The notes beneath the pieces were generated by a model. It was not told the origin of the DNA. It saw nothing but the letters and a program-made list of their open reading frames with translations, and did no database searches. Positions 23,404-47,128 of a DNA stretch of 54,598 nucleotides are shown piece after piece (the first letter of the stretch is position 1; the number at the start of each line of letters is the position of its first letter). The translations under genes and the position numbers were made by a program. Source of the DNA: Bacteroidota bacterium (GTDB lineage Bacteria; Bacteroidota; Ignavibacteria; Palsa-1295); assembly GCA_030706385.1 (NCBI GenBank), contig JAUZOQ010000009.1, positions 1-54,598 on the forward strand, written 5' to 3'.

Positions 23404-23808
23404 CTACTCTTCGGCAGCTGTTTCGGCTTCGGTTCTCGGATCGCCATACGAAGGACGTTTCTCTTCACGCAGTTTACTCCAATCTTCGCCTCGATAGGCA
23501 CGAAGCGTATACTCTATTTGCTCATCGAGAGCGGCCGGACTATATGAGAATATAAGCGGACGAATATCGACATTCCATCCTTCAAGATGCTTTGAAGCAT
23601 AGAGGGCTTCGCGTTCTTCTGCCGTCGCGCAATAAAACACTGCAACTCCTCCAGGCTTGCCGATAAAATGATCGTGAAAGATCACCAGCGGCAACGACCG
23701 ATCACCGACGAAGTCGTTGAATACCCGGTTCGCGTCTGAGGGCAGCATGCCTTCAGAAGCAAGGGCATAAACCAAAAAGCATCGAGGTTTTTTGATGGGA
23801 GGGTTCAT
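23404..23808 (-). CDS. Conserved hypothetical protein, 134 residues
   Basis: A soluble protein without signal or membrane helix. It begins MNPPIKKPRCFLVYALASEG, then ANRVFNDFV, LVIFHDHFIGKPGGVAVFY and a charged tail (KLREEKRPSYGDPRTEAE). The middle is compact and alternates beta strands and helices, but I know no family function. It overlaps the preceding T9SS gene by 4 bases (ATGA), implying coupling, and the following DUF1801 gene is on the same strand. Confidence 0.7.
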   Translation of the reverse strand: MNPPIKKPRCFLVYALASEGMLPSDANRVFNDFVGDRSLPLVIFHDHFIGKPGGVAVFYCATAEEREALYASKHLEGWNVDIRPLIFSYSPAALDEQIEYTLRAYRGEDWSKLREEKRPSYGDPRTEAETAAEE

Positions 23809-24869
23809 TCGACGATCACCTTTTTTGTTACTATTCCTTCATCGGTTTCCATCCGTACATAATACATGCCCGGAGGAAGCTTTGCCCTAAAATCGTGTTT
23901 GCCTTCGGAGAGCACGCCGTCGTAAACGGTCACGATGTCTTTGCCAAGATTGTTGAAGATGTGGAGATAAAGAAAAGAGGACTTACCCAAACTGCACGTT
24001 GCATGGACCGAACCGGTAGTTGGATTGGGGTGAACTAACAACTGCTCATTCAAAAAGCCTCGTGTTGGAACGGTAGATTTGGCAAGTGGCAGAAAAATGA
24101 AATTTACCGGCATCGCAAAAGTGGAATCAATTTTGCGATTTCGCGTATGGAGGTGAATAGATCCGCTGAATCTCATTGTGTCACTAAATACAGGAGCTGT
24201 TGTTGCGAAAAACAATCTAATCGTCTCATACGTAAGCGGGGGTATCGCTAACTGCCGAATTATCGCAGTATCGAGAGTTACCGTCATATTAAGTGCGGCA
24301 GAAGGATCGATTGTAAACGAAAAAGAATCGCATTGCAAGGAATCAGCAATATTGTTAAAAATACTGAAGTCTTGATATGAGAATGGCAGGCCTCTGCCAT
24401 ATTTAAGGCCGGTAGAGTCTGGTTCGAACGTCACGTCATATTTGTAAGGCCTTCGTATCCTCACAGTGCTGTCATAATAACTTTCTACATCAAAACTATG
24501 AATATCTTCCAAGGCAAATTGACAGGTGCTGCATGGGGGACTCGGCTCTAGCCATGTCCAAGTAAACTTAAAGGTATCTTTAAACCTGCCCGCCGCCCAA
24601 GAAGCGAATCCAAGTCTGCAACCAACTCCCCACCCAAATGGAGACTGCGGGAAGCGATGCAAAGTTGGCGCATTAGCTTTGCTTATTTCTATAAAATAAT
24701 ACGAGCACGTGTCGAAACCACTGCCAAAACTGCAATTTTGATATACGTAGCGATACTGGGGACCGCCAAAAATCAGTGAGTCCATACCTACGGGTATGCG
24801 TAAGGTTTGAGCAGACACCTCAAAAGAGCCGCATCCCAGAATGACGAGGCAAAACAGGGCTCTTAGCAT
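23805..24869 (-). CDS. T9SS paralog family protein, member 1
   Basis: A 354-residue secreted protein; signal MLRALFCLVILGCGSFEVSAQ. It opens LRIPVGMDS like the other members (IPVGD). The body has paired cysteines and the family stretch VESYYDSTVRIRRP (others: SYYDERIKI, AYYDDKIKI). The last 85 residues are a T9SS sorting domain: HPNPTTGSVHATCSL, LHIFNNLGKD, SEGKHDFRAKLPPGMYYVRM. N-terminal sequence varies strongly while the end is close to the other four genes in the array. Role unknown; surface exposed. It is last of five tandem genes and couples to the 134-residue gene. Confidence 0.78.
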   Translation of the reverse strand: MLRALFCLVILGCGSFEVSAQTLRIPVGMDSLIFGGPQYRYVYQNCSFGSGFDTCSYYFIEISKANAPTLHRFPQSPFGWGVGCRLGFASWAAGRFKDTFKFTWTWLEPSPPCSTCQFALEDIHSFDVESYYDSTVRIRRPYKYDVTFEPDSTGLKYGRGLPFSYQDFSIFNNIADSLQCDSFSFTIDPSAALNMTVTLDTAIIRQLAIPPLTYETIRLFFATTAPVFSDTMRFSGSIHLHTRNRKIDSTFAMPVNFIFLPLAKSTVPTRGFLNEQLLVHPNPTTGSVHATCSLGKSSFLYLHIFNNLGKDIVTVYDGVLSEGKHDFRAKLPPGMYYVRMETDEGIVTKKVIVE

Positions 24870-24906
24870 TTATTTATTTTCCCTGGTTATCATCTTAATT
24901 GCAGCC

Positions 24907-25977
24907 TCATTCAACAACTAGCTTCTCCGTCAACACTCCATCCTTCGTTTCCATCCGCACATAATAAACACCTGATGGCAGCTTAAACGAGAACAGATGT
25001 TGTCCGGCCGGCAACCCGCCGTCATAAACTACGAAAACATCCTTCCCTAGTTCATCGAAGATATGCAGATGAAGTTGGGTAGCCTCTTTCAAGGTACAGA
25101 GAGCGTGGCCTGAGCCAATGGAGGGGTTTGGGAATATTTCCAGATCGTTTGCTTTATCCACGCCTGCAGATAAACCGGATCTCGGCATTTCCTGGAACAT
25201 GAAAATAAGTGGAATCGAACACAGTGAATCCTTTCCACCAAAATGCGCCATGCACTGCACCTCGCCGGCAAATGATCGCCAAGGCCGGACCGGAATAAGT
25301 GAAGTGGTGAAATCAAGCAGCAGATTTTGTGCAACCGTACCGGCGGTAACTTCGACGCTGCTTACTCCGATCGAATCTTGCTCACACTTGAATGTGATCG
25401 ACGAAGAAGAATCAAGTGCAAGTCTCCAGCTATCGAATACGACATTCACGTCTTTATTATTATAGATCTCAAGTTTGGAAACGGCACCAAAGTATTTATT
25501 CTTCGCTGTGTCGTAGACAAAAACGACACCGGAATCAACCACTTTTCCGTATATCAAAGTATTGTAATAGTGCGAATAGATCTTTATCGCATTATCCAAG
25601 TATGTGTTGACAAGAAATGACTGGTTTTCATAATGATTCTCGCAGCCCCAGCATGTATAGAAGCGCTCGTCACAACTCCCACTGTTATATCTTAGGAACC
25701 AGTATGCAACGCTATCAACATACCTGCCCACACTATCTGCCTTAAATCGTATTGTTCCGATATCACTCACATAGAACGGAGGATTGACATTTGAAGGCCC
25801 AGTCACTTCGTACTGACACTCGCCTAATACCCGTGGATTCTGACAGGTGCAGGACTCTACCGAACTCGGCCGACCTGTAACGAAGACATCATTGCCGACA
25901 GCGACCTTCAACTGCTGAGCGGGACTCGCTGAAACCATTGCGGACAAAACAAAAACACAACAAAGGACTTTTCTCAT
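24907..25977 (-). CDS. T9SS paralog family protein, member 2
   Basis: A 356-residue protein; ATG 25977 opens a signal peptide (MRKVLCCVFVLSAMVSASPA, then QQ). A longer frame upstream gives a non-signal tail of 29 residues and is rejected. The mature part has paired cysteines (SCTCQNPRVLGEC, CDERFYTCWGCENH), VNTYLDNAIKIY, then SKLEIYNNKDVNVVFDSWRL, a block shared with members 4 and 5. The end (PNPSIGSGHALCTL ... GQHLFSFKLPSGVYYVRM) is the sorting domain. Member 2 is more cysteine-rich than the others. Function unknown. Confidence 0.78.
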   Translation of the reverse strand: MRKVLCCVFVLSAMVSASPAQQLKVAVGNDVFVTGRPSSVESCTCQNPRVLGECQYEVTGPSNVNPPFYVSDIGTIRFKADSVGRYVDSVAYWFLRYNSGSCDERFYTCWGCENHYENQSFLVNTYLDNAIKIYSHYYNTLIYGKVVDSGVVFVYDTAKNKYFGAVSKLEIYNNKDVNVVFDSWRLALDSSSSITFKCEQDSIGVSSVEVTAGTVAQNLLLDFTTSLIPVRPWRSFAGEVQCMAHFGGKDSLCSIPLIFMFQEMPRSGLSAGVDKANDLEIFPNPSIGSGHALCTLKEATQLHLHIFDELGKDVFVVYDGGLPAGQHLFSFKLPSGVYYVRMETKDGVLTEKLVVE

Positions 25978-26000
25978 AGTAATTCGACAAATATTCAGTA

Positions 26001-26008
26001 CAAACCTA
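26001..26008 (-). promoter_or_regulatory. Candidate Bacteroidota -7 box (TAGGTTTG)
   Basis: Read on the minus strand the octamer fits TAnnTTTG and lies 23 bases before the ATG at 25977 of the T9SS gene. No good -33 element is seen. Confidence 0.35.
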
Positions 26009-26077
26009 CGGAGGATTCGGGAGGATTGTACCGTCATTGCAGGGTAATAATCAGTACCCTTCATCGAACTCAGAATA

Positions 26078-27115
26078 TTATTCCACGATCACCCTCTTCG
26101 TGACAACTCCTTCTGACGTTTCCATTCTTACATAATACATGCCTTGCGGAAGCGTGAAGGAGAAATCGTGCCTGCCGTCGGTCATTGTGCCGTCATAAAG
26201 AGGCAAGATATCTTTGCCGAGTTCATTGAAGATGTGAAGGTGCAGTGCTCCGCGTTTTTTCAAGCATAGCGACAACTGCGTTGGACCATTTGATGGATTC
26301 GGAAAAATATTCGGATCGAACCTTGAAGACGCAACTTTTGTCGCTACCCCATTCTTGATCGAAGAGAAATGCATCCAGAAGCTGAAATTGACTTCAGTAT
26401 CCACCGCAGAGTTGTATGCGTGGATTGTTGCCATTGCCAGGATAGTACGATCTTCAGGAAATATTGGGCCAGTATGGGTAAGCCTGAATCCCAGAGTTGC
26501 CTGACTGAATGGATCCACTGTAGCTTTCGCAAATGGAACTGAGTCAATAAGTGTACGCAGACTCATATGTGCGCTGGAATCGATAGTAAGGATGCAACTA
26601 TCCAAGGTTACCGCATCCGGCCGGTTATTGAAGATAAAGACTTGTCCGGCAGGAACGCTCATGGGGCGATACCTATTCGTCAACGAGTCGATCACAAAGT
26701 CAACGTAGTAATTCGCTTGTCTAAATCTCAGCGTAGAATCAAAAAAGGTTTGCCCGGTTACGTGGAGAATGTCCTCAACTTGATTGTCACAAAGACCGCC
26801 TCCCGCGCCGTACGTTATCTTGATGGTATCACTGAATGTTCCTGCACTGAACGGTTCAAAGAGGAGCTCCTGATTTTGGCCGACGAAAAATGGGAATGAC
26901 GTGTCTTGTCCGTCAAGCGGCAATCCAGCTCCGTCGAGCGATTCGAAGGCATGAAACGGATAGCTGCAATTAGGACCTTGCTTGTCGTGACCTTGGTATA
27001 CGTTAACTCTTCCACCGACCGGGCATCTCGCCGGAGGTACTTCTTCGAATTGTGCAAGACTTTGCCTCACCAACCCAAGACTGCAGAATACGCAGAACAG
27101 GAATTTGAGTATCAT
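26078..27115 (-). CDS. T9SS paralog family protein, member 3
   Basis: A 345-residue protein with signal MILKFLFCVFCSLGLVRQSL. It is the most divergent member: RCPVGGRVNVYQGHDKQG at the start and TFFDSTLRFRQANY in the place of the YYD stretch. FNNRPDAVTLDSCILTIDSS matches the FNNK block of members 4 and 5. The last part, NPSNGPTQLSLCLKKR, LHIFNELGKDILPLYDG, DGRHDFSFTLPQGMYYVRM, is the T9SS domain. A TAnnTTTG box lies 33 bases upstream, so it may have its own promoter. Confidence 0.78.
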   Translation of the reverse strand: MILKFLFCVFCSLGLVRQSLAQFEEVPPARCPVGGRVNVYQGHDKQGPNCSYPFHAFESLDGAGLPLDGQDTSFPFFVGQNQELLFEPFSAGTFSDTIKITYGAGGGLCDNQVEDILHVTGQTFFDSTLRFRQANYYVDFVIDSLTNRYRPMSVPAGQVFIFNNRPDAVTLDSCILTIDSSAHMSLRTLIDSVPFAKATVDPFSQATLGFRLTHTGPIFPEDRTILAMATIHAYNSAVDTEVNFSFWMHFSSIKNGVATKVASSRFDPNIFPNPSNGPTQLSLCLKKRGALHLHIFNELGKDILPLYDGTMTDGRHDFSFTLPQGMYYVRMETSEGVVTKRVIVE

Positions 27116-27147
27116 ATTCTAGGAGTTATTTCATAGCATACATATGG

Positions 27148-27155
27148 CAAAAGTA
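27148..27155 (-). promoter_or_regulatory. Candidate Bacteroidota -7 box (TACTTTTG)
   Basis: Minus-strand octamer matching TAnnTTTG, 32 bases upstream of the ATG at 27115. Confidence 0.38.
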
Positions 27156-27211
27156 AGAAACCGTACGGTACGAGCAATCGTGGCTTGGATAGCACTACTT
27201 ATACCTAAGTC

Positions 27212-28267
27212 TTACTCCACTACAACCTTCTTCGTGACTACGCCTTCCGATGTTTCCATTCTGATATAGTACATCCCCGGTGGGAGCTGAGCACTAAAAT
27301 CGTGTTTGCCTTCGGAGAGCATTCCATCGTGAACGGTCAGGATGTCTTTGCCGAGCTCATTGAAGATACTGAGATGGAGGGATCTATCGCCTAGAGAATG
27401 ACAAGTTATCTTGATTGAGGCTGTCGACGGATTAGGAAATACTTGAAGACTTCGATAGTCAGATCCTATTCGATCAACGGATGAAAGCGGCAATGCTTGG
27501 AAAACAAAAAATATTGGTACATTATATAGTGAGTCAATCCCAGAGAAATTCGCAACACATTGAATTATCCCCCTGAACGTCCCTTCCCTGCTTCCACCAT
27601 GAATTGGGGCATGAGTTGAAGAAAACTCAAAAAGCAAATTATCGAGATGACTCCGCGAAGAGATTAATATTGAAGAAACTGGGGTAGAGTCTTGTACGAT
27701 TCTAAAAGAAATTGATGATGAAGAGTCGTATAAGACTTTCCACTCAGTGAGGGTTACCCTGTCAATTTTATTATTAAAGAATTGAACGGGAATACTAGCA
27801 TCGCTATATCTTCTTGTCGTTGAATCATAGGAGAAATAAGCGTAGCCGGGAAAGGTGACCGCCGATTGCGACGAGATTTTGATCCGCTCATCGTAATATG
27901 AGTCAACAATTAGTGTCTTAACCGTATCGGAAGGAGGGGAACAAAAAAGTGGAAAACATGATGGCCCTCCTCCCGGCAAGACATAGTGCAAATGTATGCT
28001 GTCAACATATTCACCTGCTTGTATGGGTTTCACAAAAATGCCGCCGTCCCCGCCCCCCTCTTGGAACGGGGGGAACACGTTGGAATCATGGGATAGAGAC
28101 CAATAGCATGTATCATTCGGGCCACTACAATCAACCGTAGTAAACAGCTGCATTGGAGGAGCGTAATATTCTACATCGCCTACCGGGATAGTAAATTGTA
28201 TGGGCTGTCCCATCCCTGGCACAGCTAATAATACATAAAACAGAGCGTAAAGCAGGGCTTTGATCAT
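27212..28267 (-). CDS. T9SS paralog family protein, member 4
   Basis: A 351-residue protein; signal MIKALLYALFYVLLAVPGMG, then FTIPVGDVEYYAPPM. Family blocks: CYWSLSHDSNVFPP, VDSYYDERIKISSQS, YSYDSTTRRYSDASIPVQFF-like strand, NNKIDRVTLTEWKVLYDSSS. The tail FPNPSTASIKITCHS, LHLSIFNELGKDILTVHDGM, GKHDFSAQLPPGMYYIRM is the sorting domain. Its 27291-27352 DNA differs at 3 of 62 positions from 28442-28503 in member 5. Function unknown. Confidence 0.78.
   Translation of the reverse strand: MIKALLYALFYVLLAVPGMGQPIQFTIPVGDVEYYAPPMQLFTTVDCSGPNDTCYWSLSHDSNVFPPFQEGGGDGGIFVKPIQAGEYVDSIHLHYVLPGGGPSCFPLFCSPPSDTVKTLIVDSYYDERIKISSQSAVTFPGYAYFSYDSTTRRYSDASIPVQFFNNKIDRVTLTEWKVLYDSSSSISFRIVQDSTPVSSILISSRSHLDNLLFEFSSTHAPIHGGSREGTFRGIIQCVANFSGIDSLYNVPIFFVFQALPLSSVDRIGSDYRSLQVFPNPSTASIKITCHSLGDRSLHLSIFNELGKDILTVHDGMLSEGKHDFSAQLPPGMYYIRMETSEGVVTKKVVVE
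27291..27352. repeat. Near-identical 62-bp block shared with member 5
   Basis: This DNA inside the sorting-domain part of member 4 matches 28442-28503 in member 5 at 59 of 62 positions; a 28-base stretch is also identical in member 1 near 23900. The proteins differ much more elsewhere. Confidence 0.9.
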
Positions 28268-28362
28268 ATTGGATTATCAGGTGTACGCAAACTACGACGA
28301 AAATTCGGGAATCGCACCCGATCTCTGAGGCCAAGAATCCATGCCAGTTCAAGAGCTTAACC

Positions 28363-29442
28363 TTATTCTACAATCAGCTTCTTCGTCTCCACACCCTCGC
28401 TCGTCTCCATTCTAACATAGTACATCCCCGACGAAAGCTTTGCACTAAAGTCGTGTTTTCCTTCGGAGAGCATTCCATCGTGAACAGTCAGGATGTCTTT
28501 GCCTAGCTCGTCATAAACGTGCAAATGAAGAAATGAGGGTCGAAGAATTGAGCATACAATCTTTGCAGATTTATGCGTTGGATTCGGAAAAACTGAAAGC
28601 GGGATCTCGGAAAGATTTTCGATACTTACACCTGATTTTGGCTTTTGTTGAAAATAGAGAGTGACAGGAAGGAGGCAAATAGAATCCTTTCCAGAAAAAT
28701 GTGCATGGGTCTGCACTATTGCATCGAAGAACCGATAGTCGGCTGTCGGAGAAAGTGATGTTCTAAATAGGAGTTGGATAGAATTAGAGTGCTCAAATCC
28801 CGGCAGAATAACCTGAGTTACGGATAGTGAATCTTGTTGTATAGAGGACAACTCGATAGACTGGGAAGAGTCCTTTATGATCGTCCAATCGGTAAAAAGC
28901 GTACTATCGTTCTTATTGTTGAAGATATCCACATTGCTGCTTGCCTCTTCATATCTATTGGAAATTGTGTCGTAGGCAAAGAAAATACTTTGGCTATATC
29001 GAATCTTGATCTTGTCATCGTAGTATGCAGTAACCCTTAGCTGCTTGACAGTATCCTTCGGAGGAGAACAAACCGGGAAGCCATTGATGCCATTCATGCA
29101 ATGCCTTAGTGGCGAAGGGCAGAGCATGTAGCTAAGATTCATCGTTGAGGAAAATTCTCCTGCCTTTTGGGGTGCAATATAGATTTCCCGATCATTTTCA
29201 TAAAATGGTGGTTCCAAATTTGAGATCCCACTCAAGCACCAATTGCATGTATCGGTATACCATACACGAACAACTACGGAATCTATCATTTGGAAATAAT
29301 TGCAGCTCTGAGTGCTCGGTTCTGTTATGATATACGTAACCGGCGTGTCGATTTTCGTCACATCTCCAACGGGTACGGTAACCTGTGCTTTGCTATCTGC
29401 AATCGACCAAAGTATTGCCAGACCAAAAATCAGAAATTTCAT
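28363..29442 (-). CDS. T9SS paralog family protein, member 5
   Basis: A 359-residue protein, first of the five in transcription order. Signal MKFLIFGLAILWSIADSKA, then VTVPVGDVTKIDTPVTY. Cysteine-containing parts DTCNWCLSGISNLEPP, CPSPLRHCMNGINGFPVC, the strand TAYYDDKIKIRYSQS, SSNVDIFNNKNDSTLFTDW and DAIVQTHAHFSGKDSICLLP are shared with members 2 and 4. The end is the T9SS domain (FPNPTHKSAKIVCSI ... LSSGMYYVRM). A TAnnTTTG box four bases before the ATG implies an almost leaderless message. Confidence 0.78.
   Translation of the reverse strand: MKFLIFGLAILWSIADSKAQVTVPVGDVTKIDTPVTYIITEPSTQSCNYFQMIDSVVVRVWYTDTCNWCLSGISNLEPPFYENDREIYIAPQKAGEFSSTMNLSYMLCPSPLRHCMNGINGFPVCSPPKDTVKQLRVTAYYDDKIKIRYSQSIFFAYDTISNRYEEASSNVDIFNNKNDSTLFTDWTIIKDSSQSIELSSIQQDSLSVTQVILPGFEHSNSIQLLFRTSLSPTADYRFFDAIVQTHAHFSGKDSICLLPVTLYFQQKPKSGVSIENLSEIPLSVFPNPTHKSAKIVCSILRPSFLHLHVYDELGKDILTVHDGMLSEGKHDFSAKLSSGMYYVRMETSEGVETKKLIVE
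28442..28503. repeat. Near-identical 62-bp block shared with member 4
   Basis: Partner of the block at 27291-27352 (59 of 62 identical), inside the sorting-domain part of member 5. Confidence 0.9.
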
Positions 29443-29446
29443 ACGG

Positions 29447-29454
29447 CAAATATA
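29447..29454 (-). promoter_or_regulatory. Candidate Bacteroidota -7 box (TATATTTG) at a near-leaderless start
   Basis: The minus strand reads TATATTTG, then CCGT, then ATG at 29442. If the box is the -7 element, transcription would begin at or just after the start codon. The octamer recurs at the same distance in other genes. Confidence 0.45.
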
Positions 29455-29499: not shown

Positions 29500-32370
29500 C
29501 TACCCTACTTGTGCACCCAGTTTCTCCATCTGGACTCGGAAGCTTTCCAGCTTCTCTTTTTCTTTCACAATAATCTGTTCCGGTGCACGGCTTGTGAATT
29601 TCTCATCGCTGAGCTTGTTCAGCAGGGACTCGTATTGCTTTGTGATGCGCTCAAGCTCTTTTTGGATGCGTTCTTTTTCTTTCTTTGCCTCTTCGGCGCT
29701 TTGCGCTTCTTGTTTAATGAAGACCTGTCCGCGTCCGCTCAATAGTTCAGCTGAGTATTCTTTGGAGGAAAGCTCTGCTCCACCTTCGGCTTCCAGAGTA
29801 AGGGCTGAGGCTCTGCAGACATTCTCGAGGATATTTCTTGAAGATTCGGCTAACTGCAGGTCGGCGGCCGATTTCAATCTAATAATGAACTCAGCCTGCT
29901 TGCTCGGAGCAAGTTTTGCATTCGACCTGAGAAGCCGCGCAGCTTCGATGATCTTTTGGATGAACTCGAATTCTTCCTCAGCCTTATCATCGATCTTCCC
30001 TTCATCGGAGGTGATGTAATCGTCTCTGCCGATCAGCACTTCGTCAGGATTGCCGGTTAGTCCGTGCCATAATTCTTCGGTGACAAATGGCATGATGGGA
30101 TGGATCATCCGCAAAATGCCTTCAAGAATCTCAACGGCAAGTGGAGTTGACTCCGGCTGCAACTTTACGATCTCTAAGTACCAGTCGCAATAATCTTTCC
30201 AGATAAAATCATACAGAAGTTTCGTAACATCATTGATGAGATAGGCATCGAATGATTTCTTCACCTCACGTGCGGCACGGTTGGCGCGCGAGAGGATCCA
30301 CTTATCGGCTAGGGTGGAAGCCGGCGCGTTTGCGAAGCCGCCGGATCGGGCATTGTCCTCAGTCGTTCCGCGCACGGAGTGGAGAGTCCGTGCCACTGAA
30401 GTTGGTGCCAGTGTATTCTGATACTCCGTGTCCTTCGCTTCGAACTTCGGTTCGGGATGAGTGGAGCGATATTCATCGCGCTTCATCATGACAAAGCGCG
30501 TGGCATTGTAAATCTTATTCGCAAAATTCCGGCCCATCTCGCAACTCTCTTCTCCGAAGCGGACGTCTTGTCCGAGTGGAGCAAGATAAAGCAGGGTGAA
30601 GCGTACAGCATCGGTACCATACTTATTGACAAGATCGATCGGATCCGGTGAGTTACCGAGCGATTTCGACATTTTCCTTCCCTGTTGGTCACGAATGATA
30701 TTATGGAAATAGACATCGCGGAATGGAATTCGATCTTCCATTCTTTCGCGTGGCATGCCATCGGGCATTTCCATACCGTGCGTGAATTCGATTCCGCCCA
30801 TGATCATACGCGCAACCCAGAAGAAAAGAATATCCGGTGCGGTCGAGAGCAACGAGCCGGGATAGAATGTTTGCAGGTCCTTCGTATTCTCCGGCCAACC
30901 GAATGTTGCGAAGGGCCAGAGCCATGACGAGAACCACGTATCGAGCACATCGGGATCTTGCTCGTAACGCGATCCGCAGTACGGACACTTTTCCGGTTGA
31001 GTAATTGAGACTACCGGTTTCTTGCATTCAAGCGTGCAGGCAACATCGCCGACGCAGTACCATGCCGGAATACGCTGTCCCCACCAAAGCTGGCGCGATA
31101 TGCACCAGTCGCGGATGTTCGTCATCCAATGCCGATACGTATTGATCCAACGCTCGGGATGAAAATGAATGAGGCCATCTTCAACAACTTGCAACGCAGG
31201 TTCGGCAAGCGGTTTCATTTTCACGAACCATTGATCGGAGAGATACGGCTCGATCATCTCGCCACCGCGCTCGGAGTATCCAACGGAATTGGTATAATCT
31301 TCGATCTTCTCGACGAGGCCAAGCTCTTCCAGATCGGCAAGAATTTTCTTGCGCGCAACATAGCGATCGAGCCCGGCGTATTTGCCGCCTTTCTCATTGA
31401 TATGCGCTCTCGTATCCATCACATTGATCTGCGGCAGATTGTGGCGCAGGCCGATTTCAAAGTCGTTCGGATCATGCGCCGGCGTGATCTTCACGCAGCC
31501 CGTTCCGAATTCTTTATCGACATATTCATCGGCAATGATCGGGATCTCCCGATCCATGAGTGGCAGGCGCAGTTTGCGACCGACTAAATTCTTGTAGCGC
31601 TCATCGGCAGGGTTGACTGCAACGGCAACGTCACCAAGCATCGTCTCCGGACGCGTCGTAGCAATAATGATATACTCCGGTTCGCCGGCTTTGCGATCGA
31701 TAAGTGGGTAGCGGAAGAAGTGCAGCTTCCCTTTTGTTTCTTTATGGATTACCTCTTCATCACTGAGAGCAGATTGCGCAAGCGGCGACCAATTGATGAT
31801 ACGCTTGCCGCGATAGATCAAGCCTTTATTATAGAGACGCACGAAAGCTTCAAGAACGGCTTTCTCATATTTCTCATCCATCGTAAACGTGAAGCGCCGC
31901 CAATCCGGACCGCAGCCAAGTGCTCGAAGTTGTGTCTCGATAAAATCCGAATGTTCATGCTTCCACTTCCAAACTTCTTCTACGAATTCTTCGCGGCCAA
32001 GATCGTAGCGCGTTTTTCCTTCATCGCGTAATTTCTTCTCGACCTTTGTCTGTGTTGCAATACCGGCATGATCAGTGCCGGGAAGCCAAAGCGCTTCGTG
32101 GCCGAGCATGCGGTGATACCGGATATAGGTATCCTGAATAGCATTATTGAGCGCATGACCCATGTGCAAAATGCCTGTCACATTGGGCGGAGGCATACAG
32201 ACGACAAACGGAGGCTTGTCATTGGCGCGCCGGCCTGTCGGATCCTGCGGCACTTCATCCGGACGGTACGCATAGAACAATCCGCCCTTTTCCCAGGCAG
32301 AATACCACTTCTTCTCTACATCTTGCGGCGCGTAAGCCTTTGCTAACTCTTTTTTCGGCGTCTCTGACAT
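29500..32370 (-). CDS. valS: Valyl-tRNA synthetase with in-frame insertion
   Basis: A 956-residue class I synthetase. It has the HIGH motif (PPPNVTGILHMGHALNNAIQ, near residue 62) and KMSKS (GRKMSKSLGNSPDPIDL), the editing domain between them (TTRPETMLGDVAVAVNP), CPYCG zinc cysteines and a C-terminal coiled-coil arm (KEKERIQKELERITKQY). Between NATRFVMMKRDEY and DKWILSR lies about 50 residues, where the usual gap is about 20: the extra sequence encodes three tandem hairpins (30321-30413). The insertion keeps frame. It charges tRNA-Val in the cytosol. Start at ATG 32370. Confidence 0.96.
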   Translation of the reverse strand: MSETPKKELAKAYAPQDVEKKWYSAWEKGGLFYAYRPDEVPQDPTGRRANDKPPFVVCMPPPNVTGILHMGHALNNAIQDTYIRYHRMLGHEALWLPGTDHAGIATQTKVEKKLRDEGKTRYDLGREEFVEEVWKWKHEHSDFIETQLRALGCGPDWRRFTFTMDEKYEKAVLEAFVRLYNKGLIYRGKRIINWSPLAQSALSDEEVIHKETKGKLHFFRYPLIDRKAGEPEYIIIATTRPETMLGDVAVAVNPADERYKNLVGRKLRLPLMDREIPIIADEYVDKEFGTGCVKITPAHDPNDFEIGLRHNLPQINVMDTRAHINEKGGKYAGLDRYVARKKILADLEELGLVEKIEDYTNSVGYSERGGEMIEPYLSDQWFVKMKPLAEPALQVVEDGLIHFHPERWINTYRHWMTNIRDWCISRQLWWGQRIPAWYCVGDVACTLECKKPVVSITQPEKCPYCGSRYEQDPDVLDTWFSSWLWPFATFGWPENTKDLQTFYPGSLLSTAPDILFFWVARMIMGGIEFTHGMEMPDGMPRERMEDRIPFRDVYFHNIIRDQQGRKMSKSLGNSPDPIDLVNKYGTDAVRFTLLYLAPLGQDVRFGEESCEMGRNFANKIYNATRFVMMKRDEYRSTHPEPKFEAKDTEYQNTLAPTSVARTLHSVRGTTEDNARSGGFANAPASTLADKWILSRANRAAREVKKSFDAYLINDVTKLLYDFIWKDYCDWYLEIVKLQPESTPLAVEILEGILRMIHPIMPFVTEELWHGLTGNPDEVLIGRDDYITSDEGKIDDKAEEEFEFIQKIIEAARLLRSNAKLAPSKQAEFIIRLKSAADLQLAESSRNILENVCRASALTLEAEGGAELSSKEYSAELLSGRGQVFIKQEAQSAEEAKKEKERIQKELERITKQYESLLNKLSDEKFTSRAPEQIIVKEKEKLESFRVQMEKLGAQVG
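30321..30413 (-). repeat. Three-hairpin insertion element within valS
   Basis: This stretch holds three consecutive inverted repeats: CCGGCG/CGCCGG (30321-30344), GCACGGA/TCCGTGC (30372-30393) and CACTG/CAGTG (30394-30413). It translates in the valS frame as a low-complexity run including TSVARTLHSVRGTTEDNARS. It falls at the join of the catalytic core and anticodon-binding domain, where length varies between species. No second copy is seen in this window. Confidence 0.55.
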
Positions 32371-35750: not shown

Positions 35751-35955
35751 TAAATGTTATATCTTCTTGGCAATCAATTAGATCGCGAAGATTCATTCAT
35801 GACCTCGGATATCGATTATGTGTTATTTTGCATCTGAGGAAACACACAAAGATACAACCCCCGAAGGAAGTAACCTATAGTTGAAACAAACTTCGAGCCA
35901 CGGTATCATCATTATACTTTTGTTGTGTATTTCACCTTTTAACCTTGATCATGCC

Positions 35956-37668
35956 ATGCCACGATATATGCGATATATTCTACTTGCAGTATTTTCTCTA
36001 ATTTCTTTTACCCCAGCATCTTATGCTCAGGGTATTAAAGTAAGTTTCTCTCCTTCGAGTCGTTTCTTCCCAGGATTCGGAAATGTCTCGATCGGTAAAT
36101 CGAAAGACCAAACCATCATCATTAAGAATGCCGATACTTCGACAGGAGCACTCAACTGCTCGATTACCGGACCCACTGGGAACGGATTTTCATTTTCGGG
36201 CCCGGCCAGTTTCAGCATCGGAGTGGGACAATCAGATACGTTGATCCTTCATTTTGCGCCGCAAGTTGCCGGGTTAGTTCGTGATACGATCTACATTTCC
36301 CATAATGCCGATACATCCTTTTCTTTGAAGAACCCCGTTCGTTATGCACTGAGTGGCACGGGTGTAGCTGCCGATACTTTTCCGAAGATAACCGTCAACA
36401 CGGGATTCGGCGGATTTTTCAACGTGGGTACAACCCCTGTTGGGAGGACCATCTCGGCATCGTTTACGATCAGGAACACCAGCGATACAATTCGAACACT
36501 TACCGGCAACGTTGGGCAGACTTTCACCTCGCGCTTTTCAGTTACTACCGGTGCAGGTGCATTTTCGCTTGATACGGGTAATGTTCAGACTGTAACCGTG
36601 AGCTTCACCCCCGATACGGCAGCGCAATTTCTCGTCGATTCAATTATCATAACGAGTAATGCAGCAAGCCCAAACAACAGGATAAAAATTACGATTATTG
36701 GCTCAGGGACGAAAGCAAGTCCATTCCCCCAAATCTCGATCGGAGGTCTTCAAGGAGGGATCATCAATTTCAGAAACGACACAATTCCGAAAACAAAGAC
36801 GGCAGTCTTCACGATAAGGAATACATCCGATTCACTTCGGACCCTTACGGGATCTGTTTCAACTCCGGGAAGCCCATTTGCTATCACCTCTGGAAGCGGG
36901 GCCTTCTCACTTGATTCCGGACAGACGAAAACAGTTACTGTGACCTTTGCTCCGACAACGGCGGGATTATTCCGGGACACGATCATAATCACAACTAATT
37001 CAGACGCCGCTAACCAGCTCATCAAGATCCCTTTAAGCGGAACGGGCGTCATCGTAGCCGGGCCGAGGATCAGCGTACAACCGCTATCCATAAATTTCGG
37101 CAATCTTACGCAGGGCGGATCAGCTCCATCATTTGCGGCTACGATCAAAAATATTGCAGATTCAGCTACCGATACGTTGCGAGGCTCCATAACCCAGCCG
37201 GGAATGCCATTTAGTATCACCTCTGGAAGCGGCGATTTTACGCTGGCTCAGAATGATTCAGTACGCCTCATCATTCAAATGGCAACGGATAACGCCGGCA
37301 CATTTAAGGACTCAATAGTGATCCTTTCCAATTCCAATGACAATGCGAAACGATTTGTTCTTCGGCTAAGTGGGACAGTGCTAGGACTTGGAGTTAAAGA
37401 CGGAGCAACTCGATTCCTAATGACAGCCGCTCCGAATCCATTTAATAACAGGACTGCAATCGGCTTCACGCTCGACGAGGCTTCTACTGTTAGCCTGAAG
37501 ATCGTTGATGTTCTCGGGAAGGAAGTATTTTCTGCATCACCTCAACAGCATCCGGCAGGTCCCTGCGAAATTGAGTGGAATGCCTCAGGAGTTCAAAGCG
37601 GATCATATACGTGTCTCCTTACGATTGGGAAAGAGACACACTCACTTCGGATAATCCTTGAGAAGTGA
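35956..37668 (+). CDS. ASH-repeat (choice-of-anchor D) T9SS surface protein
   Basis: A 570-residue secreted protein. ATG 35956 opens the signal (MPRYMRYILLAVFSLISFTP, cleaved near YAQG); a TTG frame upstream adds hydrophobic residues and is less likely. Four HYDIN-like ASH repeats follow, each ending in a TFAP-like core and SGTG: FAPQVAGLVRDTIYI, FTPDTAAQFLVDSIII, FAPTTAGLFRDTIII and a shorter one. The C-terminal 85 residues are the T9SS sorting domain (AAPNPFNNRTAIGFTLDEAS ... SGSYTCLL). It may act as a surface scaffold; no enzyme domain is seen. Confidence 0.8.
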   Translation: MPRYMRYILLAVFSLISFTPASYAQGIKVSFSPSSRFFPGFGNVSIGKSKDQTIIIKNADTSTGALNCSITGPTGNGFSFSGPASFSIGVGQSDTLILHFAPQVAGLVRDTIYISHNADTSFSLKNPVRYALSGTGVAADTFPKITVNTGFGGFFNVGTTPVGRTISASFTIRNTSDTIRTLTGNVGQTFTSRFSVTTGAGAFSLDTGNVQTVTVSFTPDTAAQFLVDSIIITSNAASPNNRIKITIIGSGTKASPFPQISIGGLQGGIINFRNDTIPKTKTAVFTIRNTSDSLRTLTGSVSTPGSPFAITSGSGAFSLDSGQTKTVTVTFAPTTAGLFRDTIIITTNSDAANQLIKIPLSGTGVIVAGPRISVQPLSINFGNLTQGGSAPSFAATIKNIADSATDTLRGSITQPGMPFSITSGSGDFTLAQNDSVRLIIQMATDNAGTFKDSIVILSNSNDNAKRFVLRLSGTVLGLGVKDGATRFLMTAAPNPFNNRTAIGFTLDEASTVSLKIVDVLGKEVFSASPQQHPAGPCEIEWNASGVQSGSYTCLLTIGKETHSLRIILEK

Positions 37669-45412: not shown

Positions 45413-47128
45413 TTACTCTATGTTCTTCAGTATTTCCTGAAACTCCGGTAGCTTGCGCAGTGGAGCCAGATCGGGGTCGTTTCGAAGGAGATCGGCATTA
45501 TTCAGCCCTGCAGCAATGCCGCGCCGCAATGTTACCACAGCCTTATCGTATTCTCCAAGAGTTGTTAGAAGGCAAGTGAGATTATAACTACCCGAACCAT
45601 CGAGTCTCTCAATAGAGCATAATGCATCGGCTTCCTTCTTCGCCGCTTCGCTCTTGCCTGACCATTGTAGGATATATGCATATTGAACTCGTGAAGGATG
45701 ATCTTCCGGCCTGAATCTGAGATGACGCTCGTACACCGGTAAAGCGCGTTGGATGGCCTGCGCCAGCCATGCCGCGTCTCCAATTTGAAAGAGGATTCCA
45801 ATAAGATTAAAATGCGCATTCGGAATGCTATTTCGCAATTCGACTTCCCTTTGCCATGCCTTCGCCGTTGAGGGCAGGTCACCGAGAGCATAGAAGGCGA
45901 AGCCAAGGACTGCCTGAACACCGGCATCTTCCGGGGCAAGCTCGGCTGCTCGCTTCGCATATATCAAAGACTCCTCTTTATTCCCGAGACGCAAATTCTT
46001 TTGACACATACCCATGTTCCAACGGTAGGATTCACCCTCGATCTCCTTGATGCGGCTGACAGCATCTTCGACCCGCTTGATCATAATTGGATCAGCGCCA
46101 TAGTACCGATGCATCTCATAGCAAATATTAGCTATTCTGCCATACGCAGCGGCAAAATTTGGATCGAGCTTTATGGCTTCATCATAGAGCAGGAGTGCAC
46201 GTTCATAGTCAGCCTTCGTATGCTTCTGAAAATATTCATGCGCACGAAGATACAGCTCGTAGGCATCGGAATTATCCGTAAGCTTGGTATCGATCTGTTT
46301 TTCTTCATCGGGAGTCAGCTTCAGCGCTAGGGCGTCCGAAATTGAACGCACCGTCTTATCTTCAAAATCAAAGATATCATCGAACGTACCGTCGTATTTT
46401 TCCGTCCATACGTATTGATGCAGTACCGCATCGGAGAGTGAAACACGCAAACGAATTTTTTCCCCGACTTTTTGGACCGATCCCGAAACTACGTATCGAA
46501 CTCCGAGATCGGAAGCGACCTCCGACAACGTTGGCTGACGACCCTTATAGTAGATCACATCGTTGCGAGGGTTAACGATAAGCTTTCTTAGCAGACTGAG
46601 CGTACCGATGAGCTCATCCGTCATGCCCTCAGCAAACCAATCGTTATCCCTTGCAGGCGAAAGATCGTCGAACGGAAGGACGGCAAGCCTGCGTACCCCA
46701 TGTGAATCATGGACACGAGGAGTAACTACGTTGGATTGCGACTCCGAACTCAGGTCGATCGATAAGATCCACTTCTCCACGGAGTCCTTATCCTGTGCAG
46801 AAATTCTGTGCAATCCGGCAAGGGCATACATCATCGCATCGCTTAATTCACACTGCTCCAATTCAATCGGAACGATCGTTTTTTGGAGTTCGGATGCAAG
46901 TGCAAGTTCTTTGGTAACATTCTGAGATAGGACGGAGCGCGGAGAAAGCAGCACAATGAAAGCTTGGCAGTTACGAATGGCACTAACGATCTCTGCACTC
47001 CACGTCTCCGCAGCAGTCAGTGAAGCGGTATCCATCCAAATATTCGCTCCGCGTGAGCGTAACTCACCGGCAAATCGCACCGCATACTCGCCGTCGCTTC
47101 GAGAATAGGATAGGAAAATATCCGACAT
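45413..47128 (-). CDS. TIR domain-TolB/FlgO-like-TPR protein
   Basis: A 571-residue soluble protein. Residues 1-125 form a TIR domain (IFLSYSRSDGEYAVRFAGEL, GANIWMDTASL, ETWSAEIVSAIRNC, AFIVLLSPRSVLSQNV); E46 in WSAEI could be the NADase glutamate. Residues 150-260 (RRLAVLPFDDLSPARDNDWF, GVRYVVSGSVQKVGEKIRLR) are a TolB/FlgO-like nucleotide-cyclase-associated domain. From 270 on, TPR repeats follow (AIKLDPNFAAAYGRIA). Similar architectures occur as signalling proteins; a role in NAD-linked signalling or defence is inference. A TAnnTTTG box lies eight bases upstream. Confidence 0.85.
   Translation of the reverse strand: MSDIFLSYSRSDGEYAVRFAGELRSRGANIWMDTASLTAAETWSAEIVSAIRNCQAFIVLLSPRSVLSQNVTKELALASELQKTIVPIELEQCELSDAMMYALAGLHRISAQDKDSVEKWILSIDLSSESQSNVVTPRVHDSHGVRRLAVLPFDDLSPARDNDWFAEGMTDELIGTLSLLRKLIVNPRNDVIYYKGRQPTLSEVASDLGVRYVVSGSVQKVGEKIRLRVSLSDAVLHQYVWTEKYDGTFDDIFDFEDKTVRSISDALALKLTPDEEKQIDTKLTDNSDAYELYLRAHEYFQKHTKADYERALLLYDEAIKLDPNFAAAYGRIANICYEMHRYYGADPIMIKRVEDAVSRIKEIEGESYRWNMGMCQKNLRLGNKEESLIYAKRAAELAPEDAGVQAVLGFAFYALGDLPSTAKAWQREVELRNSIPNAHFNLIGILFQIGDAAWLAQAIQRALPVYERHLRFRPEDHPSRVQYAYILQWSGKSEAAKKEADALCSIERLDGSGSYNLTCLLTTLGEYDKAVVTLRRGIAAGLNNADLLRNDPDLAPLRKLPEFQEILKNIE

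Follow-up and report, generated by a model that had tools for sequence, protein, structure and literature searches.

Old tandem paralogs with type IX secretion tags in an ignavibacterial genome, and probable local gene conversion of their sorting domains

Type IX secretion system (T9SS) tags are usually treated as evolving independently of one another. The tag of type A cargo (TIGR04183/PF18962) is a C-terminal sorting domain (CTD), a beta-sandwich that is targeted to the T9SS by its final 22 residues (PMC4804311). Recombination among T9SS proteins is on record from Porphyromonas gingivalis, which rearranges the adhesin modules of such proteins and exchanges their alleles, gene conversion having been invoked as a source of variation (PMC5266723). 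Here we analyze a stretch of 54,598 nucleotides (the window) of contig JAUZOQ010000009.1 from a Bacteroidota bacterium (GenBank assembly GCA_030706385.1; GTDB lineage Bacteroidota; Ignavibacteria; Palsa-1295). It contains a minus-strand run of five paralogous open reading frames (23805-29442), located between valS and a small gene that has four bases in common with the end of member 1. The members are numbered 1 to 5 by window coordinate, the order of transcription being 5 to 1, and each encodes a front domain followed by a CTD. These genes are old tandem duplicates, and we consider it likely that local gene conversion recurrently acts on the CTD, giving rise to a tract shared by three of them and, in other clusters, to near-identical 3' ends and mosaic genes.

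The sorting domains of the array and their shared tract

Pairwise identity among the array CTDs is 54-73% at the protein level and 0.55-0.69 at the DNA level, and throughout most of the domain the protein is kept while the codons are randomized, with synonymous sites near saturation. In the fronts, codons for the same residue are identical between members in 0.28-0.45 of cases, so that synonymous sites are saturated. Given these codon patterns, the bulk of the CTD similarity is ordinary purifying selection. The near-identical ends described by a first-pass annotation, made from the DNA sequence alone, do not stand at such values. Pairwise DNA identity along the genes, a comparison that the annotation had proposed, is nevertheless non-uniform: between members 4 and 5 it is 0.27-0.60 across the front and 0.49 just upstream of a 62-nt tract (GKDILTVHDGMLSEGKHDFS in member 5), 0.96 inside that tract, and only 0.64 over the last 15 codons.

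The tract lies 31 to 51 codons ahead of the stop. The annotation had counted 3 differences in it between members 4 and 5, which is exact, and the similarity goes beyond protein conservation. Both members indeed carry the block, but it is not limited to them, as member 1 has it too, with a 28-nt exact run in common with member 4 (Table 1); members 2 and 3 lack it. When codons were redrawn synonymously from the array's own usage (40,000 draws, best 62-nt window per pair), members 4 and 5 averaged 12.8 mismatches, and no draw gave fewer than 4 (P=2.5e-5), with P=7.5e-5 for members 1 and 4 and P=0.0036 for members 1 and 5. Identical codons for the same residue are also more frequent in the last 50 codons than in the front, namely 24/38 vs 30/93 for members 4 and 5 (P=0.001), 20/32 vs 23/73 for members 1 and 3 (P=0.003), and 20/38 vs 20/71 for members 1 and 4 (P=0.011). 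Because the tract is internal, with divergent flanks on both sides, it is a classical gene-conversion footprint rather than a near-identical end, and a short, old gene conversion fits it best. A scan of the contigs of the source genome with the five-row alignment returned matches in the CTD only. A tree test of concerted evolution of the CTD gave p 0.09-0.26 (approximately unbiased test), the domain being too short to decide.

Adjacent T9SS genes in the source genome and its relatives

The CTD stretches of 92 T9SS genes of the source genome were compared, the fragmented assembly (161 contigs) being read in stretches. Codon identity between CTDs is 0.580 for adjacent same-strand genes (58 pairs), 0.411 for adjacent opposite-strand genes and 0.358 for non-adjacent genes (0.351 over 4050 pairs without the array-B family described below). 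Since adjacent genes are often duplicates, the decisive comparison is the contrast between front and end within a pair. In three other clusters of the source genome, in a genome of the same family (G003, 20 contigs) and in a genome of another family examined as a replicate (G027, two contigs, about 100% complete), adjacent T9SS genes have saturated or non-homologous fronts and CTD DNA that is 84-96% identical. On contig C1, the genes c1_3 and c1_4 are 0.49 identical in front DNA and 0.96 in the last 50 codons, with a synonymous identity of 0.90 (P=1.5e-11); pairs on contigs C23 and C50 give P=1.3e-6 and P=2.9e-5, and a pair in G003 gives P=2.7e-6. The shared segments in these clusters have sharp boundaries, with that of the G003 pair about 155 bases ahead of the stop. 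Moreover, c1_3 is a mosaic that combines front blocks of c1_2 (mostly 0.93-0.98) with the tail of c1_4 (0.93-1.00). Synonymous identity within the shared segment is raised above that of the rest of the pair modestly in the window and strongly in these clusters, which display both this excess and mosaic patterns; no member with two donors, of the kind of c1_3 and the BNR gene described below, turned up in the window array.

A second, larger tandem family with T9SS tags (array B) has 13 complete members on contigs C1, C107 and C23 (L075:265-3923, L164:3879-7313 and L165:1294-5719), and the end of C107 and the start of C1 possibly belong to one array. Its proteins are about 285-320 aa long, with a GWPDTCAHLK-type front that had no Pfam match in the two scanned, and their genes have near-identical 3' ends. 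Most stops overlap the next start as CATGAATAG, and the repeated segment continues through the junction. Where array B reaches the end of C107, it encloses a BNR-propeller T9SS gene (L164:7673-9712) whose last 43 bases are those of its unrelated neighbours (90.7%, E 7e-12); judged by this match, it is a case of tag capture.

In G027, P falls below 1e-4 in 5 of 70 neighbouring same-strand pairs. At one locus of this genome (L168, G027:C1:649000-662000), five T9SS genes stand side by side; their fronts are for the most part unrelated, and two types of tag are shared among them. The fronts of the gene at 655016 (YCF48-type propeller) and of that at 656942 (BNR and a weak P-domain) are not homologous (blastp E 0.2), but their CTDs have nucleotide and synonymous identities of 0.87 each (P=6.7e-12); the last 90 bases of the two genes are 98-100% identical, and so, without any difference, are the 60 bases that follow the stop. 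The second CTD type is common to the genes at 651225, 659039 and 660924 (84-88% DNA identity), whose Pfam fronts differ (YCF48-type, BNR/CarboxypepD and SBBP propeller). Two genes of the locus have an identical leader of about 35 residues.

Gene conversion and its alternatives

The route and direction of recombination that we infer begin with five old tandem duplicates whose fronts have drifted to synonymous saturation, while the CTD is kept by purifying selection because the T9SS must recognize it. The CTDs would stay similar enough to recombine, so that neighbours occasionally copy a short CTD stretch from one another by gene conversion, and the tract of members 1, 4 and 5 could reflect one such event or a small series. 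Longer and more recent events of the same kind would produce the near-identical 3' ends of other adjacent T9SS genes, here and in related genomes, and, by joining fronts and tags of different genes, would create mosaics in which unrelated fronts capture tags. What we propose is thus a known process, local gene conversion, that would be recurrent on an export tag, with the window array as a modest, older case. Regarding the annotation's suggestion that a shared 3' cassette undergoes gene conversion or recombination, the synonymous tests support conversion, more strongly elsewhere than in the window, but the window displays a short internal tract and no wholesale cassette.

Several observations weigh against this proposal. 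In the window, donor, direction and age are not readable from a tract this short in saturated surroundings, and the pairwise tests, ten among five genes, are non-independent. Neither member 2 nor member 3 has a clear tract of this type in common with any other member. When all 70 pairs of G027 are pooled, the contrast is weak (front 0.508 vs CTD 0.519), and only some clusters carry the signal. Finally, a Flavobacteriales genome exhibits no CTD homogenization except in whole recent duplicates; this result serves as the negative control of the method, and we do not claim the pattern for all T9SS bacteria. Two loci of Flavobacteriales genome G391 (L189 and L190, contig C2) are very recent duplicates of giant T9SS genes, with about 800 codons 100% identical between copies.

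The alternative that survives best, although we regard it as doubtful, is that the genes grew through rounds of unequal crossing-over, or of duplication of segments that span a junction (a CTD and the next start), in which case alike ends would be the joints of the latest duplications. In array B and one G027 pair, the shared stretch does cross the stop into the start of the next gene; for array B, where it may well apply, and for part of G027, this is an equal or better description. However, homology ends at or before the stop codon in the window, in G003 and in most other pairs, and the window tract, internal to the CTD with both flanks divergent, speaks against such a joint there. Purifying selection alone, with the 62-bp block as the most constrained part of the CTD, appears improbable. 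The near-saturated synonymous sites in the rest of the array CTDs, the lack of excess in the recoding test for pairs that include member 2, and the role of the CTD as a known export signal whose targeting function resides in the final 22 residues (PMC4804311) all fit such selection; against it stand the 0 of 40,000 recodings that reached 3 mismatches in 62 nt, the synonymous identity of 0.90 in the 96% identical C1 pair, and the identity of the 3' flank past the stop in the G027 pair. As an explanation of the tract and of the other clusters, selection alone is refuted; for the bulk of CTD conservation, it holds.

We also think it unlikely that the constant ends belong to a program of diversification that permits whole fronts to be swapped and thereby varies the cell surface. 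Mosaic genes and tags shared by unrelated fronts would suit such a program, as would the repeated overlapping junctions of array B and, in G027, two adjacent genes with the same leader and start, a neighbour with the same tag, and the identical 60-nt flank after the stop. In the window, by contrast, the ends vary from member to member and the fronts are old, with saturated synonymous sites; the array region contains no repeats besides the CTD, and among the scanned neighbouring proteins there were no silent donors and no dedicated recombinase. The annotation's idea that recombination could diversify surface proteins is accordingly not supported in the window, where the fronts resemble duplicates of long standing that have gradually diverged, with the front of another genome of the genus inside their tree. 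That the pattern arose in assembly, from repeats collapsed or fused into chimeras within a fragmented metagenome bin, is very improbable: array B does touch contig ends, but the copies are 84-96% rather than 100% identical and the pattern recurs in the far less fragmented G027 and G003.

If gene conversion is the process at work and neighbours keep rewriting their tags, tag phylogenies would depart from gene phylogenies, cluster-specific tags may mark common sorting partners, and unrelated proteins could gain export by capturing the tag of a neighbour. More tentatively, the T9SS tag and the following gene junction might constitute a local recombination cassette in the class, through which clusters attach unrelated passengers to one cluster-specific tag, perhaps for the same sorting partner. 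The strong cases in the near-complete G027 genome and in array B make tag exchange testable. We found no title or abstract on tag homogenization between neighbouring T9SS genes, a search that left subscription papers outside its scope and does not prove novelty.

The array genes, their front domain and known systems

Table 1. Coordinates of the array, its shared tract, candidate promoter boxes and neighbouring genes in the window
Feature	Coordinates	Strand	Description
Small gene	23404..23808		function unknown
Member 1	23805..24869	-	last transcribed; 354 aa; architecture as member 5; has shared CTD tract
Member 2	24907..26064	-	385 aa as called; 355 aa from likely start 25974; without shared CTD tract
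Member 3	26078..27115	-	345 aa; architecture as member 5; without shared CTD tract
Member 4	27212..28267	-	351 aa; architecture as member 5; TIGR04183 41.2 bits
Member 5	28363..29442	-	first transcribed; 359 aa; predicted double Ig-like front and T9SS type A sorting domain; TIGR04183 41.6 bits
Tract in member 1 CTD	23887..23948	-	common to members 1, 4 and 5
Tract in member 4 CTD	27291..27352	-	62 nt; 3 differences from member 5; 6 from member 1 after a 3-nt shift
Tract in member 5 CTD	28442..28503	-	62 nt; 3 differences from member 4; 9 from member 1 after a 3-nt shift
TAGGTTTG box	26001..26008		within called N-terminal extension of member 2
TACTTTTG box	27148..27155		upstream of member 3
TATATTTG box	29447..29454		just upstream of member 5
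valS	29500..32370		flanks the array
T9SS protein	35881..37668		multiple Ig domains of the HYDIN/ASH type; a few kilobases away from the array
TIR domain and TPR repeats protein	45413..47128		571 aa; possibly defence or signalling

The annotated architecture, five paralogous open reading frames with a PVG-like opening, YYD and FNN blocks and a sorting domain, was borne out. All five CTDs score above the NCBIfam cut-off of 23 bits for TIGR04183 (37.8-41.6 bits), and four of the five exceed the Pfam cut-off of 27 bits for PF18962, member 2 scoring 23.1 bits. The leaders are hydrophobic with AQ-like end sites (judged by eye), and the model places a helix at residues 2-12. By these features, the five proteins are presumably Sec-exported and T9SS-delivered, and a surface location with a binding or structural role would be in keeping with this. 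Because the TAGGTTTG box is inside the called extension of member 2 and a normal leader (signal peptide) follows it, the true start of this gene is probably 25974 and not 26064, the call adding about 30 N-terminal residues. TAnnTTTG boxes, which we take to be the Bacteroidota promoter type, lie at most about 40 bases upstream of members 2 (corrected start), 3 and 5. Separate transcription of these three members from their own boxes is suggested, and no more than suggested, because the motif is not over-represented in the window (30 observed vs 26.6 expected).

The source genome has about 80 T9SS sorting domains, and close copies of the array front occur only in these five genes; one more gene, on contig C1, has a distant copy. 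No family in Pfam or NCBIfam matched the fronts, the matches being confined to the CTD, and a sequence search of the PDB with the front yielded no match. A match to viral C107/3CLpro proteases (16-23 bits) was rejected, as it falls on the CTD and not on the front. A profile built from ten fronts found the domain in 9 of 13 genomes of the source GTDB family and in 0 of 378 other genomes of the class. Some of these relatives are single genes of array-member size, and in G004, G002 and on contig C1 the domain is embedded in longer proteins, of which one was scanned and gave weak matches to propeller repeats. As far as sequence libraries go, the annotation's claim of an undescribed family is therefore upheld.

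The structure prediction that had been suggested for the front was run, and the predicted fold is ordinary. For the front of member 4, AlphaFold returned a mean predicted local distance difference test score (pLDDT) of 74.5 and a predicted template-modelling score (pTM) of 0.70 from an input of only five sequences; the full-length model of member 1 was poorer (pLDDT 61). Foldseek matched HYDIN/CFAP ciliary immunoglobulin (Ig)-like domains, PapD-like chaperones and CFA/I pilins, with E from about 1e-7 down to 1.6e-9 and low TM-scores (best about 0.55, CooA pilin). The safe reading of the model is two Ig-like beta-sandwiches with no assignable ligand, and the fronts would form a lineage-restricted, unnamed double Ig-like family. 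In the tree of fronts, a gene of G001, a genome of the same genus, falls together with members 2, 4 and 5 (support 89/89), and a single clade of the five members is marginally rejected (p 0.041); because of these two results, part of the array is probably older than the species split. The G001 contig with valS (C339) stops inside that gene, on the array-equivalent side, and says nothing on the presence of the array.

In comparison with known systems, the array fronts resemble HYDIN/ASH-type and PapD-like Ig folds and CFA/I-type pilins in their predicted double beta-sandwich; however, with no sequence match and low TM-scores, only the general fold is in common, and the Pfam models of ASH/HYDIN Ig domains had no match in the five array proteins despite this resemblance. 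The members are like other T9SS type A cargo in having the sorting domain above cut-off and a hydrophobic leader with AQ-like sites, and differ in a front that is outside Pfam and NCBIfam. With the gingipain/HagA proteins of P. gingivalis (PMC5266723) they have in common that T9SS surface proteins share modules through recombination; there, adhesin modules and alleles of different strains are exchanged, whereas the exchange here involves the sorting domains of genes that are neighbours within one genome, some with unrelated fronts. Finally, as in classical gene conversion within tandem families of surface proteins, one segment is homogenized while the rest diverges, and mosaics arise. Unlike in that case, the homogenized segment is an export and sorting tag, neither exposed nor variable, so that the process lowers the diversity of the part that is copied.

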